A DNA stretch of 35,865 bases from Planctomycetota bacterium (GCA_020425515.1 JAGQRI010000066.1:5417-41281), one strand, 5' to 3'; counted from the first letter of the stretch, positions 5,491-22,584 are shown. Translations and numbers: made by a program. The notes: generated by a model from the letters alone, not told the origin.

Positions 5491-6414
5491 ATGCGCATCG
5501 GAATCGACTGGGGCGGGACTTCAATCAAAGCGGCCATCGTGGACGGCGCGAACCTGCGCGGCTTCACTCGCGTCAACACGCGCATCGACGCCGGCCCCGA
5601 AGTTGTGCTGGATGACATCGCCCGCCTGGTGAAAGTGCTGGGCGCGAAACCGGCGGGCGTCGGGCTGGCCATCCCCGGCGAAGTGCGCGACGACGGGCGC
5701 TGCTGGCGCCTTCCCAACGTGCCCGGCTTCGAAGACGTCAACATCGCCGCCGAGTTGCATGAACGCATCGGCTGCCCCGTCGGCGTCGAAAACGACGCCA
5801 TCGCCGCCGCACTGGCCGAGCGGCTGTACGGCTGGGGCAACACCTACCGCAGCTTCCTTTTAGTCACGCTTGGCACCGGCATCGGCGGCGGGCTGGTGCT
5901 GGACGGCGAAGTCCGCCGCGGGCGTGCCGGCTTCAGCGGCGAGATCGGCCACGTCATGATCGACAGCAGCGAAGACGCCTGGCCCTGCGGCTGCGGCCGA
6001 ACAGGCTGCATGGAGGCGTACGCGGGCACGGCCGGCCTGCTGCGCCGCTACGCGATCAAGGGCGGGCGCGCGGGCAGCATCAAGCAGATCGCCGACGCCG
6101 ACGACGAAGGCAGCGAGGAAGTCTGGAAGCAGTTGGGCAACGCGCTCGGTACAGGGCTGGCGTGCATCAACAACGTGCTGGACCTCGACGCGGTGATCTT
6201 CACCGGCGGTGTCGCCAACAGTTTCGCGCGCGTCGAACCGCACCTGCGCGAAGCCCTGAAGGCCCGCGCGTTCGCACCACCGCTTGCGGAAATCCCGTTC
6301 GAGATCAGCAAGCTCGGCGAGCATGCCGGCGTCATCGGCGCCGCGCATTTACCGACCGAACGCGCCCCCAGCGACTCAGGCCGCCTGTTCCCCGCGCCGC
6401 CGTTGCCGCGCTAG
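5491..6414 (+). CDS. ROK-family sugar kinase (glucokinase-like)
   Basis: ROK kinases phosphorylate sugars such as glucose or N-acetyl-hexosamines with ATP in the cytoplasm. Seen here: the phosphate-binding DWGGTSIK at residues 6-13, the catalytic Asp of VENDAIAAA (D102), GTGIGGG at 128-134, and the zinc site of H154 with C166, C168 and C173 (CGCGRTGC). Length 307 is normal. The start at 5491 gives an N-terminus beginning directly with MRIGIDWGG; upstream in-frame codons are not preceded by a ribosome site. Substrate cannot be read from sequence; glucose is the default guess. No sugar transporter or regulator lies nearby. Confidence 0.9.
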   Translation: MRIGIDWGGTSIKAAIVDGANLRGFTRVNTRIDAGPEVVLDDIARLVKVLGAKPAGVGLAIPGEVRDDGRCWRLPNVPGFEDVNIAAELHERIGCPVGVENDAIAAALAERLYGWGNTYRSFLLVTLGTGIGGGLVLDGEVRRGRAGFSGEIGHVMIDSSEDAWPCGCGRTGCMEAYAGTAGLLRRYAIKGGRAGSIKQIADADDEGSEEVWKQLGNALGTGLACINNVLDLDAVIFTGGVANSFARVEPHLREALKARAFAPPLAEIPFEISKLGEHAGVIGAAHLPTERAPSDSGRLFPAPPLPR

Positions 6415-14659: not shown

Positions 14660-15709
14660 TCAGAAGCCCTGGAAGACCTGGTATTCCTCGTGCTCGCCGG
14701 CGTCCACGGTGACCTCAGAGGCCGGTCGGCGTGGTGTGTGCCGGGCCTCTCGGGTCGGTTTGCCGAGGCGCAGCAGGATCTGCGGGAAGCGTACGCCGAC
14801 GTGCTTGGCCAAATCGGCGCGCAGGCGGTCGATCTCGATCGGCTGGTTCAGGAAGCTGGCGCTCAGCCCCTCGCGGGTGGCGACCAGCAGCAACTGCGCC
14901 AGCGCCTCGCCGGTGCGGACCCAGTCCGTGTGATGGTCCTTGTTGGTGCCGATGATGCACAGCGCGGGCGAGTGCTCGGCCAGTTCGCGATCCCGGGCGG
15001 CCTGGCCTTCGCCGACGTCGAAAGTGCGAATCGCGATCGGCGCCGCCAGCGAGGCGAACTCGTTCATCCCCTGCGTGAAGCCGGGCATGCCGTCGCGGCT
15101 GCGGCTGCGGTTGTGGTGCAGCCAGGATGCCAGCTCGCGGCGGTAGGTCTTGCTGGCCATCTGCTGCACGTCGGCCTCGGCGATGCGGTCGGCCAGCGCG
15201 TGGCGCGAGGTATCGTCGTGGTAGGCGCGCAGGGTGACGCGGTGGGTGGCGCAGACTTCGGCGAGTGCGGCCATCTGCTCGTCGCTGACGCTGCCCTCGA
15301 CGTAGGGGAAGCGGTTGGTGACGCGTCGCGGCAGGTACTCGAACAGTTCGCTGAGCGCCTGTTGCGGCGGGGCGTCCTCGTCGAAGTAGAGATTGGCCAG
15401 CAGGTCGGAGCCGTCTTCCGGGTTGCGGTAGACCTTCACGGGCACATTGAAATGTGCCGCCGCGACGCGCATATACATCAGCGCGCAGCCGCACGAGATG
15501 CTGAGTTCGCGGTCGTGGGGGTCGACGACGGGGAGCGCGCGGGTGCGGTCGGCGTGGATGGCGACGTGGTTGTCGTGGCGGATGAACAGCCACGGCTGCG
15601 AGTTGTGCGACGACGGCGCGAGCACGCCCCAGTTGATCAGGAAATCCAGTTGCTCGACGGGCCTGCCGTCGGCGGGGAAGTCGGATTCAGCGGGCAGCTT
15701 CAGCTTCAT
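14660..15709 (-). CDS. Acg-like nitroreductase-family protein
   Basis: The 349-residue product has the two-lobed layout of Acg-type nitroreductases, a branch of FMN-binding flavoproteins. Seen: APSSHNSQPW at residues 31-40, a typical FMN-phosphate region; SISCGCALMYMRVAA; and the second lobe with WVRTGEALAQLLLVATREGL and the closing PQILLRLGKP. The exact reaction is unknown; some Acg members are thought to sequester FMN instead of reducing a substrate. Its ATG is the base next to the clpS stop, so it is translated with clpS. This joins a flavoprotein to the ClpS cluster. Confidence 0.85.
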   Translation of the reverse strand: MKLKLPAESDFPADGRPVEQLDFLINWGVLAPSSHNSQPWLFIRHDNHVAIHADRTRALPVVDPHDRELSISCGCALMYMRVAAAHFNVPVKVYRNPEDGSDLLANLYFDEDAPPQQALSELFEYLPRRVTNRFPYVEGSVSDEQMAALAEVCATHRVTLRAYHDDTSRHALADRIAEADVQQMASKTYRRELASWLHHNRSRSRDGMPGFTQGMNEFASLAAPIAIRTFDVGEGQAARDRELAEHSPALCIIGTNKDHHTDWVRTGEALAQLLLVATREGLSASFLNQPIEIDRLRADLAKHVGVRFPQILLRLGKPTREARHTPRRPASEVTVDAGEHEEYQVFQGF

Positions 15710-16027
15710 CTATTCGTCCGGTTCGATGGTGACGACGAGCGGGAACTTCTGCGTGCGCGCCGATGACGTTACCTGGTCTTTCTTCAACTCGGCCACTTCC
15801 TGCGGGTAGACCCCGGCGATGCCCTGGCCTGTGTTGTGGACCTCGAGCATGACCTTCTTGGCCTGGTCGATGTCGTGGGCGAAGAAGCGCATCAGGACCC
15901 AGACGACGAAATCCATGGTGGTCTTGGGGTCGTTGTGGAGGATGACCTTCCACATCGGCGCGCGCTTCTTCTTCGTGTCGGCGTCGGTGTCGATCTTCGG
16001 TTTCGGCAGTGTCGTAGTGTCCGGCAT
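15710..16027 (-). CDS. clpS: ATP-dependent Clp protease adaptor ClpS
   Basis: ClpS binds proteins with a bulky hydrophobic N-terminal residue and hands them to ClpA (or ClpC) for degradation by ClpP. The 105 residues comprise a polar N-terminal tail of about 24 residues, needed in known ClpS for delivery, and a canonical core: WKVILHNDPKTTMDFVVWVL with N32-D33-P34, and LEVHNTG with H64 at the position that contacts the substrate amino group. The second Asp of the common NDD motif is Pro, as in several lineages. The ATG follows a TAAAAT box by six bases with no ribosome site. It is followed directly by the nitroreductase gene. No clpA or clpP is present here. Confidence 0.95.
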   Translation of the reverse strand: MPDTTTLPKPKIDTDADTKKKRAPMWKVILHNDPKTTMDFVVWVLMRFFAHDIDQAKKVMLEVHNTGQGIAGVYPQEVAELKKDQVTSSARTQKFPLVVTIEPDE

Positions 16028-16033
16028 GCCGCG

Positions 16034-16039
16034 ATTTTA
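16034..16039 (-). promoter_or_regulatory. -10 box (TAAAAT) for leaderless clpS mRNA
   Basis: On the minus strand TAAAAT ends six bases before the clpS ATG. A TTGGTG lies 19 bases further upstream (16059-16064). There is no Shine-Dalgarno site. The box gives clpS and the nitroreductase gene a promoter of their own. Confidence 0.5.
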
Positions 16040-16064
16040 GCACAAGCCTCGCGCCAATCACCAA

Positions 16065-16093
16065 GGGGACTGTCCCGGCACGGGACTGTCCCC
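16065..16093. repeat. Paired GGGACTGTCCC palindromes upstream of clpS
   Basis: Two copies of the 11-base palindrome GGGAC-T-GTCCC lie 16 bases apart centre to centre, and together they also form a larger imperfect dyad. They abut the candidate -35 box of clpS. They may be an operator or a REP-like element. GGGACAGTCCC words often occur as dispersed repeats in bacteria with REP transposases. Confidence 0.55.
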
Positions 16094-16148
16094 GCAGTCG
16101 GCGATCAAAAACAATTGCGTCGAAACCGCGAAGAACCGCCTGCCGGTC

Positions 16149-16958
16149 TTACTTCGCGGCCCTTTGCGGTCCTTCGCGGTTTGTCTTTTCGAGGTCGATT
16201 ACCGCGATGCGCAGCGGTTGGCCTTGCCGTACCAGGAAGCCCTCTGTTTTTTCGTACAGCGCCTGCGCTTGCGACCGGTCGTGGAAGCGTCTTGCGATGG
16301 CGCTGCCGTGCAGGTGGGTCATCTGCATGACGGCCGCCGCCACCTCCGGGCTGAGTTTCATGCACTGGTTCAGGACCATGTGGACGAACTCGAAGGTGCT
16401 GGTGTCGTCGTTGTAGAAGGCGACGGCCCAGCGCCCGTCGCCGACTTCGTGGGCGTTGGCGGCGACCACGTCCCGCGCGCGGGCGTACAGGTCGAGTTCG
16501 TAGAACACCACGTCGGGCAACGGGTTGATGTAGTAGGGGTCAGTCTCAACGAATCCGAAAGACTCGTACAGCTTGCGCGCGGCCTTCATGCTGCCGAGCG
16601 TATCCAGCAGCACGCGCATGTAGCGCTGGTTGTTGGCGAACTGGAGCGCCTCCGAGACGAGCGCCGAGGCAAGCCCCCGGCCGCGGTGCTCCGGTTTGAC
16701 GTACATGCGTTTCAGCTCGCAGGCGGCGTCTCCCAACCGGCGCAGGGCGATGCAGGCGGCCGGTGCGTTGTCGAGTTCGGCAAGCAGGATGCAGCCGCTG
16801 GGCGCGGAGTAGCAGCCGGGCAGATCGATCAGTTCGTCTTCGAAACCCTGGAAGCCGAGGTCGATGCCAATCTCCTCGGCGTAGGCACGAAACAGCGCGC
16901 GCACGTCATCCATGCGGCGCAACTGGTTGGCGACGTCGATGATGCGGCAGTCGTCCAT
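16149..16958 (-). CDS. GNAT acyltransferase fused to a ClpS domain (fusion A)
   Basis: The 269-residue protein has two parts. Residues 1-157 are a full GNAT domain with the CoA-pyrophosphate loop HRGRGLAS (91-98), a preceding ELKRMYVKPE strand and a C-terminal KLYESFGFVETD. Residues 175-258 match ClpS: WAVAFYNDDTSTFEFVHMVL with N183-D184-D185, then QMTHLHGSA with H215 at the substrate-reading His position, and a closing GQPLRIAVI. The core N-degron pocket is thus kept. Such a fusion suggests an enzyme that docks on protein N-termini or on the Clp machine. A TAGACT box six bases before the ATG suggests its own leaderless transcript. It lies 29 bases after fusion B and upstream of clpS. Confidence 0.85.
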   Translation of the reverse strand: MDDCRIIDVANQLRRMDDVRALFRAYAEEIGIDLGFQGFEDELIDLPGCYSAPSGCILLAELDNAPAACIALRRLGDAACELKRMYVKPEHRGRGLASALVSEALQFANNQRYMRVLLDTLGSMKAARKLYESFGFVETDPYYINPLPDVVFYELDLYARARDVVAANAHEVGDGRWAVAFYNDDTSTFEFVHMVLNQCMKLSPEVAAAVMQMTHLHGSAIARRFHDRSQAQALYEKTEGFLVRQGQPLRIAVIDLEKTNREGPQRAAK

Positions 16959-16964
16959 GGCGCG

Positions 16965-16970
16965 AGTCTA
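16965..16970 (-). promoter_or_regulatory. -10 box (TAGACT) for leaderless GNAT-ClpS fusion A
   Basis: On the minus strand TAGACT ends six bases before the ATG at 16958. I see no convincing -35 box and no ribosome site. Confidence 0.4.
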
Positions 16971-16987
16971 CCTTCATCCGCGTGTCT

Positions 16988-17737
16988 TCAGCGCTTTTCG
17001 ACGACGGCCTTCAACGGGAAGTCTCCCATACGCGCGAGCGCTGCAATGCGTTTGGCGACCCCGTTGGCACCGCTCTGTGTGCGGCAGTACCGGATAACCG
17101 CGCTTCCGGCGTTGTGGACCACGATGGCGTGTTCGCACGCAACAACCTCGGTAATATCCAGCACACGCGCGAGACACTGACAGACGAAAGGGAACGTTGT
17201 GGTGTCGTCATCCAGCAGGCGGACAACCCACGGGCCGCTGCCGCGAGGTTCGCCGTTTCGCTTCAAGCTGCCTGTCGCGCGCTCAAGCTGGTTCGCGTGA
17301 AACGCAAGGTGGTCGCCGGCGCCACCGGGCAGGTAGGGAGCGACCGGGTGGAACCCGATACTCTCGAGCACCGGCTGCGCCCGCTGCTGCGCGCCGGGCA
17401 CGAGCAGGTAGACATCCGCCCGGGCCGACGCACTCAGGCAAGCATACTGCACAAGCTCCTTGCCCAGGCCGTTTTCCCGGTAGCGGGGGGCGACGTAAGG
17501 CCCGATCAGCTCTGCACGGTTGTCGAAATTGCGGTGCCCGATCATGTACCCGCCGGCGGTCGGTTCGCAGTACACAAGCAACGTCAGGTCGTCAGGCGGC
17601 AGGTCCCTGAATTCGAGGGCAAGTGTCGCGACGTGTGACCGGAGGGCGCCGTCGGGCAGCTCGTCCAGCCAGCGGGTAAAGAGTTCCGTGGCATAGCGAG
17701 CCGCCCGAGGAGAGTCGGATGTGGCCTGGAGCTGCAT
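16988..17737 (-). CDS. Second GNAT-ClpS fusion, diverged (fusion B)
   Basis: The 249-residue product has the same order as fusion A. Residues about 45-150 are a reduced GNAT domain: IGPYVAPRYRENGLGKELV holds the R-E-N-G-L-G acyl-CoA loop (87-92), and VLESIGFHPV the last helix-strand. Residues 169-249 are ClpS-like: WVVRLLDDDTTTFPFV with D176-D177-D178 replacing NDD, and IVVHNAGSA with H208 kept, ending GDFPLKAVVEK. Overall identity to fusion A looks low, so the duplication is old or the fusions arose separately. The ATG at 17737 shares one base with the stop of the ClpS-like gene, so translation is coupled. The longer upstream frame is rejected because it runs through that gene. Confidence 0.8.
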   Translation of the reverse strand: MQLQATSDSPRAARYATELFTRWLDELPDGALRSHVATLALEFRDLPPDDLTLLVYCEPTAGGYMIGHRNFDNRAELIGPYVAPRYRENGLGKELVQYACLSASARADVYLLVPGAQQRAQPVLESIGFHPVAPYLPGGAGDHLAFHANQLERATGSLKRNGEPRGSGPWVVRLLDDDTTTFPFVCQCLARVLDITEVVACEHAIVVHNAGSAVIRYCRTQSGANGVAKRIAALARMGDFPLKAVVEKR

Positions 17738-18075
17738 CAGACGATCTGCTGGCCTTCGATTTCTATCTTGAACGGGTAGCCCGATTCCTCGGCGGCTTCG
17801 ACCACCCGGCGCCGGGCGATCTCGGCGGGGATGGCCGGCAGCTCGGCGACCACGGCCTTGCCCTCGTCGCGGATGCTGTCCACCAGCGCCTTGGCCGTCA
17901 ACTCGTCGTAGCCGAAGTAGTTTTCCAGCGCGAACATGACGAAATCGACCGGCGTTTTGTCGTCGTCGAAAAACCACACCTTCACCTTCGCCGCGATCAT
18001 CGTGCTTTCTTCGCGGGTGTGGTCGGTTTCCTCGGCCGGCTCAAAGTCCGAGTCGGAAGGGGTATCGTCAGGCAT
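17737..18075 (-). CDS. ClpS-like protein lacking the substrate-reading histidine
   Basis: The 112-residue product has a 28-residue acidic tail and then a ClpS core: KVKVWFFDDDKTPVDFVMFAL (D37-D39 at the NDD place), YFGYDELTAKALVDSI, and the GKAVV and GYPFKIEIEG strands. At the position of the conserved His that contacts the substrate amino group it has Arg (R69 in SIRDEGKAV). It begins MPD like the clpS gene downstream. I place the start at 18075 because a TATACT box lies six bases before this ATG; an upstream ATG at 18102 is less likely. It heads the minus-strand cluster and is coupled to fusion B. It may bind other ends or another protein. Confidence 0.85.
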   Translation of the reverse strand: MPDDTPSDSDFEPAEETDHTREESTMIAAKVKVWFFDDDKTPVDFVMFALENYFGYDELTAKALVDSIRDEGKAVVAELPAIPAEIARRRVVEAAEESGYPFKIEIEGQQIV

Positions 18076-18081
18076 GACCTG

Positions 18082-18113
18082 AGTATAGCGTGCGCGCGTC
18101 ATGGATTTGTCAA
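18082..18113 (-). promoter_or_regulatory. Promoter of the ClpS cluster (TTGACA / TATACT)
   Basis: On the minus strand a perfect TTGACA (18113-18108) and TATACT (18087-18082) are separated by 20 bases, longer than the usual 17. The -10 box is six bases before the ATG at 18075, so the mRNA would be leaderless. Confidence 0.5.
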
Positions 18114-22098: not shown

Positions 22099-22584
22099 TT
22101 GGAATACAATCATCCAATAGCCTTCCTGCTGACGGTCGTAACCTACGGCGCCTGGCTGCATGGGGATGAGCGTGGATCGGTTAAGCACGGCGAACCAGCC
22201 AAGTTCCTCCCACCAGATGAGTTGCTGAAACAACACAATGCGTCGAACCTAAAGCATCCGTCCGCAACTCTAAATGCACGCCAGCGCGGGATCGTAAGGC
22301 GCAACATCGAGAGCTATTGCGATTACAAGAAGTGGTTCGTCAGCGCGGTCAACGTGCGAACGAACCACTTTCACGTAGTCGTCGCTGCAGTAGAGAAACC
22401 CGAGAAGATGCTCAACGGCATCAAAGCTGCGGTAACTCGCAAGTTGCGCGAAGCAGATGAATTTGTCGGGCGTCCTGTGTGGGCTGTGCGAGGCAGCAAG
22501 CGTCGGCTGTATACACGGAAATCTCTCGACCTTGCCATCGACTACGTGGTGAACCGGCAGGGGGATCCGCTGCCCGAAGAGTAG
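22099..22584 (+). CDS. REP-associated tyrosine transposase (Y1/HUH family)
   Basis: This 161-residue single-strand transposase acts on REP hairpins. It has the HUH metal site H90-F91-H92 (TNHFHVVV) and the helix with MLNGIKAAVTRKL, followed by RPVWAVRGSKR and YVVNRQGDP, usual in this group. The nucleophilic Tyr is not certain; Y138 and Y149 are candidates. It starts at a TTG (22099) about nine bases after GGGGA; a longer frame is absent. Codon use is less GC-biased than its neighbours, with many A-rich codons near the N-terminus, which fits recent arrival. It is intact and probably active or recently so. Confidence 0.85.
   Translation: MEYNHPIAFLLTVVTYGAWLHGDERGSVKHGEPAKFLPPDELLKQHNASNLKHPSATLNARQRGIVRRNIESYCDYKKWFVSAVNVRTNHFHVVVAAVEKPEKMLNGIKAAVTRKLREADEFVGRPVWAVRGSKRRLYTRKSLDLAIDYVVNRQGDPLPEE

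Follow-up and report, generated by a model that had tools for sequence, protein, structure and literature searches.

ClpS, the N-degron adaptor of ClpAP and ClpCP, as described in E. coli and Caulobacter, contacts the amino group and first amide of its substrates through Asn34, Asp35, Thr38, Met40 and His66 (PMC8346999). Lys84 is a chaperone-binding residue, and the N-terminal extension of E. coli ClpS reaches into the channel of ClpA (PMC12493166). Agrobacterium, cyanobacteria and Leptospira have both a canonical ClpS and a second, divergent one (PMC12493166, PMC7966870), and ClpS-fold domains attached to other proteins are described as the L7/L12-ClpS insertions of conflict systems (PMC7159879, PMC12419801). 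The locus we describe here shares features with all of these. It lies on the minus strand, at positions 15710-18075, of a 35,865-nucleotide stretch of DNA (the window) from a Planctomycetota bacterium (GCA_020425515.1 JAGQRI010000066.1:5417-41281), and encodes four ClpS (PF02617) domains, each above the Pfam cut-off, two of which follow an N-terminal GNAT domain in a single open frame. It differs from the two-adaptor systems in that ClpS1 and ClpS2 are adjacent with the fusions between them, no fusion being reported in the available parts of those papers, and from the L7/L12-ClpS proteins, in which vWA or membrane HTH proteins carry the L12/ClpS-type domains and a GNAT partner is not mentioned in the text accessible. 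We read the locus as an expansion of ClpS that is specific to one lineage.

In order of transcription the four genes are as follows:

17737..18075, minus strand: ClpS2, divergent ClpS, 112 amino acids (PF02617 at 3e-11)
16988..17737, minus strand: fusion A, GNAT-ClpS, 249 amino acids (Pfam; PF00583 at 2.5e-8, residues 43-129; PF02617 at 1.3e-12, residues 169-244)
16149..16958, minus strand: fusion B, GNAT-ClpS, 269 amino acids (Pfam; PF00583 at 4e-19, residues 47-136; PF02617 at 3e-12, residues 176-251)
15710..16027, minus strand: ClpS1, canonical ClpS, 105 amino acids (PF02617 at 7e-31, 106.3 bits)

Domain content and order, residue conservation and loss, gene overlaps and distribution were all computed. 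The PF02617 matches score 43-106 bits against a curated cut-off of 23 bits, and the four domains are the only ones of ClpS found in this metagenome-assembled genome of about 80% completeness; the PF00583 scores are 69.5 bits for fusion B and 34.6 bits for fusion A (cut-off 20.7). The frames have no internal stop, and coding third-position GC is 0.72-0.87 in both halves of the fusions. Since the neighbouring genes (GT28, DLH, an Acg-type oxidoreductase and AHSA1) are syntenic in sister genomes, an assembly chimera is excluded, and a chance or artefactual origin is ruled out by this synteny together with domains above curated cut-offs. An earlier note, made on this DNA from its sequence, had placed four such genes at these minus-strand coordinates with the domain order GNAT then ClpS, which Pfam bears out, but it had swapped the two stand-alone genes: the one it called ClpS-like (15710-16027) is the canonical ClpS, and the one it called ordinary (17737-18075) is the divergent one that lacks His66.

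The C-terminal parts of both fusions are ClpS-like, as that note had proposed, not only by their PF02617 scores but also in predicted structures. The C-terminal part of fusion A superposes on 3o2b/2wa8 (E. coli ClpS, with Phe peptide) at 1.1 A over 80 columns, and the AlphaFold model gives this half a predicted local distance difference test score (pLDDT) of about 90-98; its GNAT half is poorly modelled, and a predicted template modelling score (pTM) of 0.49 makes the relative domain placement uncertain. In the fusion B model (mean pLDDT 87.7) the first half has the GNAT fold and the ClpS half shows the expected secondary-structure elements at pLDDT 87-97. The closest solved structures to ClpS1 are the ClpS of Caulobacter and E. 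coli.

How much of the ClpS binding site has been retained? Alignments were made across 16 genomes in six genera of a small family of uncultured bacteria, among which the genome holding the window is G000 and its sister genomes carry labels such as G002-G011. Canonical ClpS1 is present in 16/16, and every sequence keeps Asn34, Asp35, Thr38, Met40, Met62, His66, Glu79 and Lys84, so that the ClpS1 of the window resembles E. coli and Caulobacter ClpS in these residues, as it probably does in fold. The 15 ClpS2 sequences have Asp at both 34 and 35 and none has His66, which is replaced by Arg (9), Ala (5) or Thr (1); Lys84 is replaced in most, the exceptions being two with Lys and one with Arg there, all in genus g6. 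The ClpS2 of the window has Asp at 34 and carries Arg in place of His66 and Ala in place of Lys84, in which it differs from the E. coli and Caulobacter proteins. The five fused domains, only 23-42% identical in pairs, all keep Asp35 and His66, which are their invariant polar pocket residues and which they share with E. coli and Caulobacter ClpS. The retention of the histidine in both fusions of the window, noticed earlier, is therefore confirmed by alignment, and the ClpS half of fusion B also keeps Asn34 and Met62. Position 34 is Asn or Asp in the five domains, and the gatekeeper Met40 has become Phe, Val or Thr. Lys84 is replaced by a hydrophobic residue (Val, Leu, Ile or Met) in 5/5 and Glu79 is kept in 2/5, with the alignment at 79-84 less sure owing to a one-residue insertion near position 79. 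Unlike E. coli and Caulobacter ClpS, then, the fused domains lack Lys84 and a free N-terminal extension and stand behind a GNAT. Judged by sequence, the fusions are ClpS-fold proteins and are not filed as Clp adaptors.

A divergent ClpS domain with Gly at the His66 position is found in G007 (C41; L108 4514-5059), where it forms the N-terminal part of a 181-residue protein that extends about 80 residues beyond it at the C-terminal end.

The loss of the ClpA-contacting Lys84 makes delivery to Clp by the fusions doubtful. Could they nevertheless be adaptors that couple modification to degradation, using another surface to hand ClpC substrates that have been acetylated or processed at the N-terminus? 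Their physical linkage to canonical ClpS1 and the presence of ClpC in the family are in keeping with such a role, but no fusion retains Lys84 and most have also lost Glu79, and the GNAT occupies the place of the free N-terminal extension, so we regard this possibility as quite improbable. Of the two outcomes put forward in the earlier note, tagging of protein ends for Clp and masking of them, masking or competing for them fits the residues better.

The GNAT halves were compared with the acetyl-CoA P-loop consensus R/Q-x-x-G-x-G/A and with the tyrosine that acts as general acid in GNATs. In the window both halves have the P-loop of PF00583 proteins (RimI and, by fold, the polyamine acetyltransferase DpA and PaiA), and the model of fusion B has their fold, but unlike these proteins both are joined to ClpS. 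Identity as RimI was rejected, the TIGR01575 scores of 34.4 bits (B) and 16 bits (A) being far under the cut-off of 86.4. Fusion B keeps both the P-loop, as RGRGLA, and the Tyr, which it and the free GNATs have in an LYExxGF motif. This GNAT, which is thus intact, shares 57-59% identity with the free GNAT that occupies the same site in sister genomes. Its ratio of nonsynonymous to synonymous substitution (dN/dS) is about 0.29-0.45 against free GNATs, compared with 0.28 between the free GNATs of G003 and G004, values which indicate purifying selection like that on its free relatives. Fusion A keeps its P-loop, as RENGLG, and has Leu instead of the usual Tyr; the fusion of G011 has RGRYIG where the P-loop consensus is expected.

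L/F transferases have a GNAT-like fold and are enzymes of the N-degron pathway. On this general ground the GNAT halves might be makers of N-degrons, transferring amino acids to N-termini in the manner of L/F or Arg transferases for the ClpS half to read, an idea akin to the earlier note's tagging proposal. We consider it highly improbable, because neither fusion matches PF03588 or another aminoacyl-transferase family, because an R-x-x-G-x-G/A P-loop likens the GNAT halves to GNATs that depend on acetyl-CoA, and because a separate, true L/F transferase (Aat) is encoded elsewhere, in 15/16 family genomes including that of the window (G000:C291).

Together with ClpS1 and ClpC, this Aat makes it likely that the normal N-degron route, Aat - ClpS1 - ClpC, is present in the family. 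The Clp_N-bearing proteins of the family, named from their N-termini and neighbours, are ClpC-type (starting MFEQFTERARKVLGLARQEAQ), ClpB-type and ClpV-like, and no obvious ClpA was found among them. As a separate observation, the ClpV-like ATPase of G003 (C15, L179) and of G002 (C1, L180) adjoins VgrG-like and TssF-like open reading frames, and these loci are probably type VI secretion loci.

What, then, might the fusions do? The reading that we favour, tentatively and at somewhat less than an even chance, is that they are modules that bind protein N-termini, either attached to acyltransferases or descended from them, and that they modulate the ClpS1/ClpC N-degron pathway; we infer N-terminus binding, acetylation, the substrates and antagonism with ClpS1 from the features above. 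From what is known of the family, ClpS1 would deliver proteins with destabilising N-termini, including the products of Aat, to ClpC. A fused ClpS subfamily that appears to have kept the alpha-amine-binding residues and not the ClpA/ClpC-docking residue would bind free protein N-termini and hold them beside the GNAT. In fusion B the intact GNAT would favour acetylation of the terminus after its release, or of a nearby lysine, either of which may hide the protein from ClpS1 or remove it. The A-type proteins, in which the GNAT would be eroding, would act mainly as binders or decoys, and fusion A and ClpS2 may compete for protein ends and so tune the hand-over from ClpS1 to ClpC. A narrower proposal, that an N-recognin-guided acetyltransferase acetylates destabilising N-termini and spares the proteins from ClpS1-ClpC, as a bacterial N-degron "eraser", we hold to be unlikely.

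Several points weigh against the reading that we favour. The chief of these is that an N-terminus held by ClpS has its alpha-amine enclosed in the pocket, where it cannot be acetylated; the acetyl group would have to be added after release, or to a lysine close by. A-type GNATs have Leu in place of the usual catalytic Tyr, the N-terminal part of the G009 fusion matches GNAT neither by Pfam nor by hhalign, and only 4/16 family genomes (G000, G003, G009 and G011) carry fusions. The placement of GNAT relative to ClpS is uncertain in the fusion B model (pTM 0.60). Nor are the diagnostic residues infallible: in human UBR1 Asp takes the place of His66 (PMC8346999), so this histidine is not strictly required and its loss from ClpS2 is no proof of lost binding, and Leptospira ClpS1 likewise lacks Lys84 (PMC12493166), so that loss of this residue alone is no proof of lost docking.

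The strongest rival is that the fusions are decoys or anti-adaptors, in which the fused ClpS sequesters N-degron proteins, or mimics ClpS1 without delivering, and the GNAT serves as a scaffold or acetyl-CoA sensor and not as an enzyme. Overall we place it on the unlikely side, but it is favoured for the A lineage by the worn GNAT: the Tyr is lost in A-type proteins and the GNAT of G009 is unrecognisable, while His66 stays. The loss of the Lys84 contact from all fusions and most ClpS2, and the way in which fusion A begins within the last nucleotides of ClpS2, also agree with it, whereas the P-loop, Tyr and purifying selection of the fusion B GNAT do not. The earlier note's proposal that N-terminal modification is coupled with recognition stands in part, in that alpha-amine contacts are kept and fusion B has an intact GNAT, but catalysis is not the role of all fusions, given the lost Tyr of the A type and the N-terminal domain of G009.

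The arrangement of the locus within the family bears on its history. ClpS2 adjoins ClpS1 in the same orientation in 14/16 genomes; in G008 the two are on different contigs and in G007 they are apart. In 8 genomes the two follow each other with no gene between; the others have a free GNAT only in G002 and G004, a fusion and a free GNAT in G003, one fusion each in G009 and G011, and two fusions in G000. In 4/4 carrier genomes the A-type gene overlaps the end of ClpS2, by TGATG in G000 and G003, by an ATG overlap in G009 and by 8 nucleotides in G011, and this shared position and overlap suggest that the A-type gene was a single ancestral gene that underwent several losses. In the ClpS tree all five fused domains group together with support 100/99, separately from ClpS1 and ClpS2; this grouping is indicative, the tree having 78 columns, long branches and unsettled bootstrap values. 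The GNAT halves of A and B belong to separate groups, that of B among free GNATs of many bacteria and those of the G000 and G003 A-type fusions paired together, so one ClpS type was joined to a second GNAT. In the simplest history that these trees would allow, a ClpS that the A lineage already carried as a fusion was joined again to a neighbouring free GNAT in G000; the reverse, that an older fusion B lost its ClpS in the sister genomes, is a possible alternative, and recent copying of the ClpS domain of A into B is unsupported (29% identity). Under either history, two unlike GNATs with the same ClpS type argue that the GNAT-ClpS pairing is useful.

This bears in turn on whether the fusions are near-neutral by-products, ClpS duplicates fused to GNATs by chance and drifting without a dedicated function. 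Their patchy presence, the erosion of the G009 GNAT and their fast divergence (between G000 and G003, fusion A is 39% and ClpS1 83% identical) would suit such an origin. We judge it fairly improbable, however, as all five genes have retained open frames without stops and a coding pattern, Asp35 and His66 are invariant, a second GNAT partner was taken up in fusion B, and gene position and ClpS2 overlap are the same in all four genomes.

In G002 and G003 a stretch of about 150 nucleotides precedes the free GNAT (L102, L103, about 6050-6220), without counterpart in G000 and G004; it has matching outer inverted arms, GTGACATGGCCGTC...GGCCGTGTCAC, and could be a small mobile element.

The search for the fusion in other genomes that had been suggested earlier recovered it in sister genomes of the same family, but outside it a profile of the five fusions had no full-length match in the genomes of three phyla, that of the family (392 genomes), a second (398) and a third (366), in searches where mostly 6-7 candidates were scored per genome, with strict E-value limits for the second and third phyla, and where a rare fusion could be missed. 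A scan of genome contigs with fusion B returned free GNATs only. In a survey of 199 related genomes, other members of the phylum also have two ClpS genes, but among the matches listed outside the family these are never side by side. A 16S probe site of Planctomycetes type (PLA46) is present with one mismatch in the genome of the window and in most relatives, which makes a planctomycete-like lineage possible. An origin in mobile elements or phages was rejected, as plasmid and viral searches gave no fusion: fusion A had no match on plasmids, the fusion profile met stand-alone ClpS only on viral contigs, ClpS1 as query in this check had no matches, and fusion B found only GNATs among the matches listed from a viral structure library. 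The stand-alone ClpS of IMG/VR viral contigs (L165-L169) have intact pocket residues, in agreement with a published phage ClpS (PMC7824862). A defence system was likewise rejected (PADLOC-DB, no match at E <= 0.01). The earlier claim that no GNAT-ClpS fusion is described holds as far as our literature search reaches: we found no description, subscription journals being mostly outside its coverage.

Three genes of the locus are preceded by -10-like hexamers, listed here with the gene that follows ClpS1:

18082..18087, minus strand: TATACT, 6 nucleotides before the ClpS2 ATG, a leaderless-type start
16965..16970, minus strand: TAGACT, 6 nucleotides before the fusion B ATG
16034..16039, minus strand: TAAAAT, 6 nucleotides before the ClpS1 ATG
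14660..15709, minus strand: Acg-family FMN-binding oxidoreductase, downstream of ClpS1 (NF047509 at 3.6e-88, above cut-off)

A TANNNT hexamer ending 5-8 nucleotides before the ATG was found for ClpS2 in 8/8 genes checked, for ClpS1 in 9/14 entries and for four of the five free GNAT or fusion B genes. When every ATG of these loci is counted, the share is 1.7%. This suggests leaderless mRNAs, common in the family. Fusion A genes lack the hexamer, and because the fusion A ATG overlaps the ClpS2 stop (TGATG) its translation is probably coupled to that of ClpS2; fusion A would thus be made from the ClpS2 message, and fusion B and ClpS1 would have their own starts. The start of the Acg oxidoreductase directly abuts the ClpS1 stop (TAGATG), the arrangement is syntenic in four sister genomes (G002-G005), and the two genes are likely co-transcribed. 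The likely units are therefore ClpS2-fusion A, fusion B, and ClpS1-Acg oxidoreductase. No structured RNA was found in the region. Upstream of ClpS1 there are two GGGACAGTCCC palindromes (window 16066-16092), and downstream in the window a Y1-transposase-like open reading frame (22099-22584; PF01797, E 4e-4, just below cut-off), with which they possibly form a pair of the repetitive extragenic palindrome (REP) type.

A single protein that has both an acetyltransferase and a domain for binding N-ends would make the link between the two directly testable. The family also offers a natural series, of a canonical adaptor, an adaptor without His66, an adaptor without Lys84, and fused and unfused GNATs, which lets pocket function be separated from chaperone docking. 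If the eraser proposal were true, bacteria would have a reader-writer enzyme acting against the N-degron pathway.

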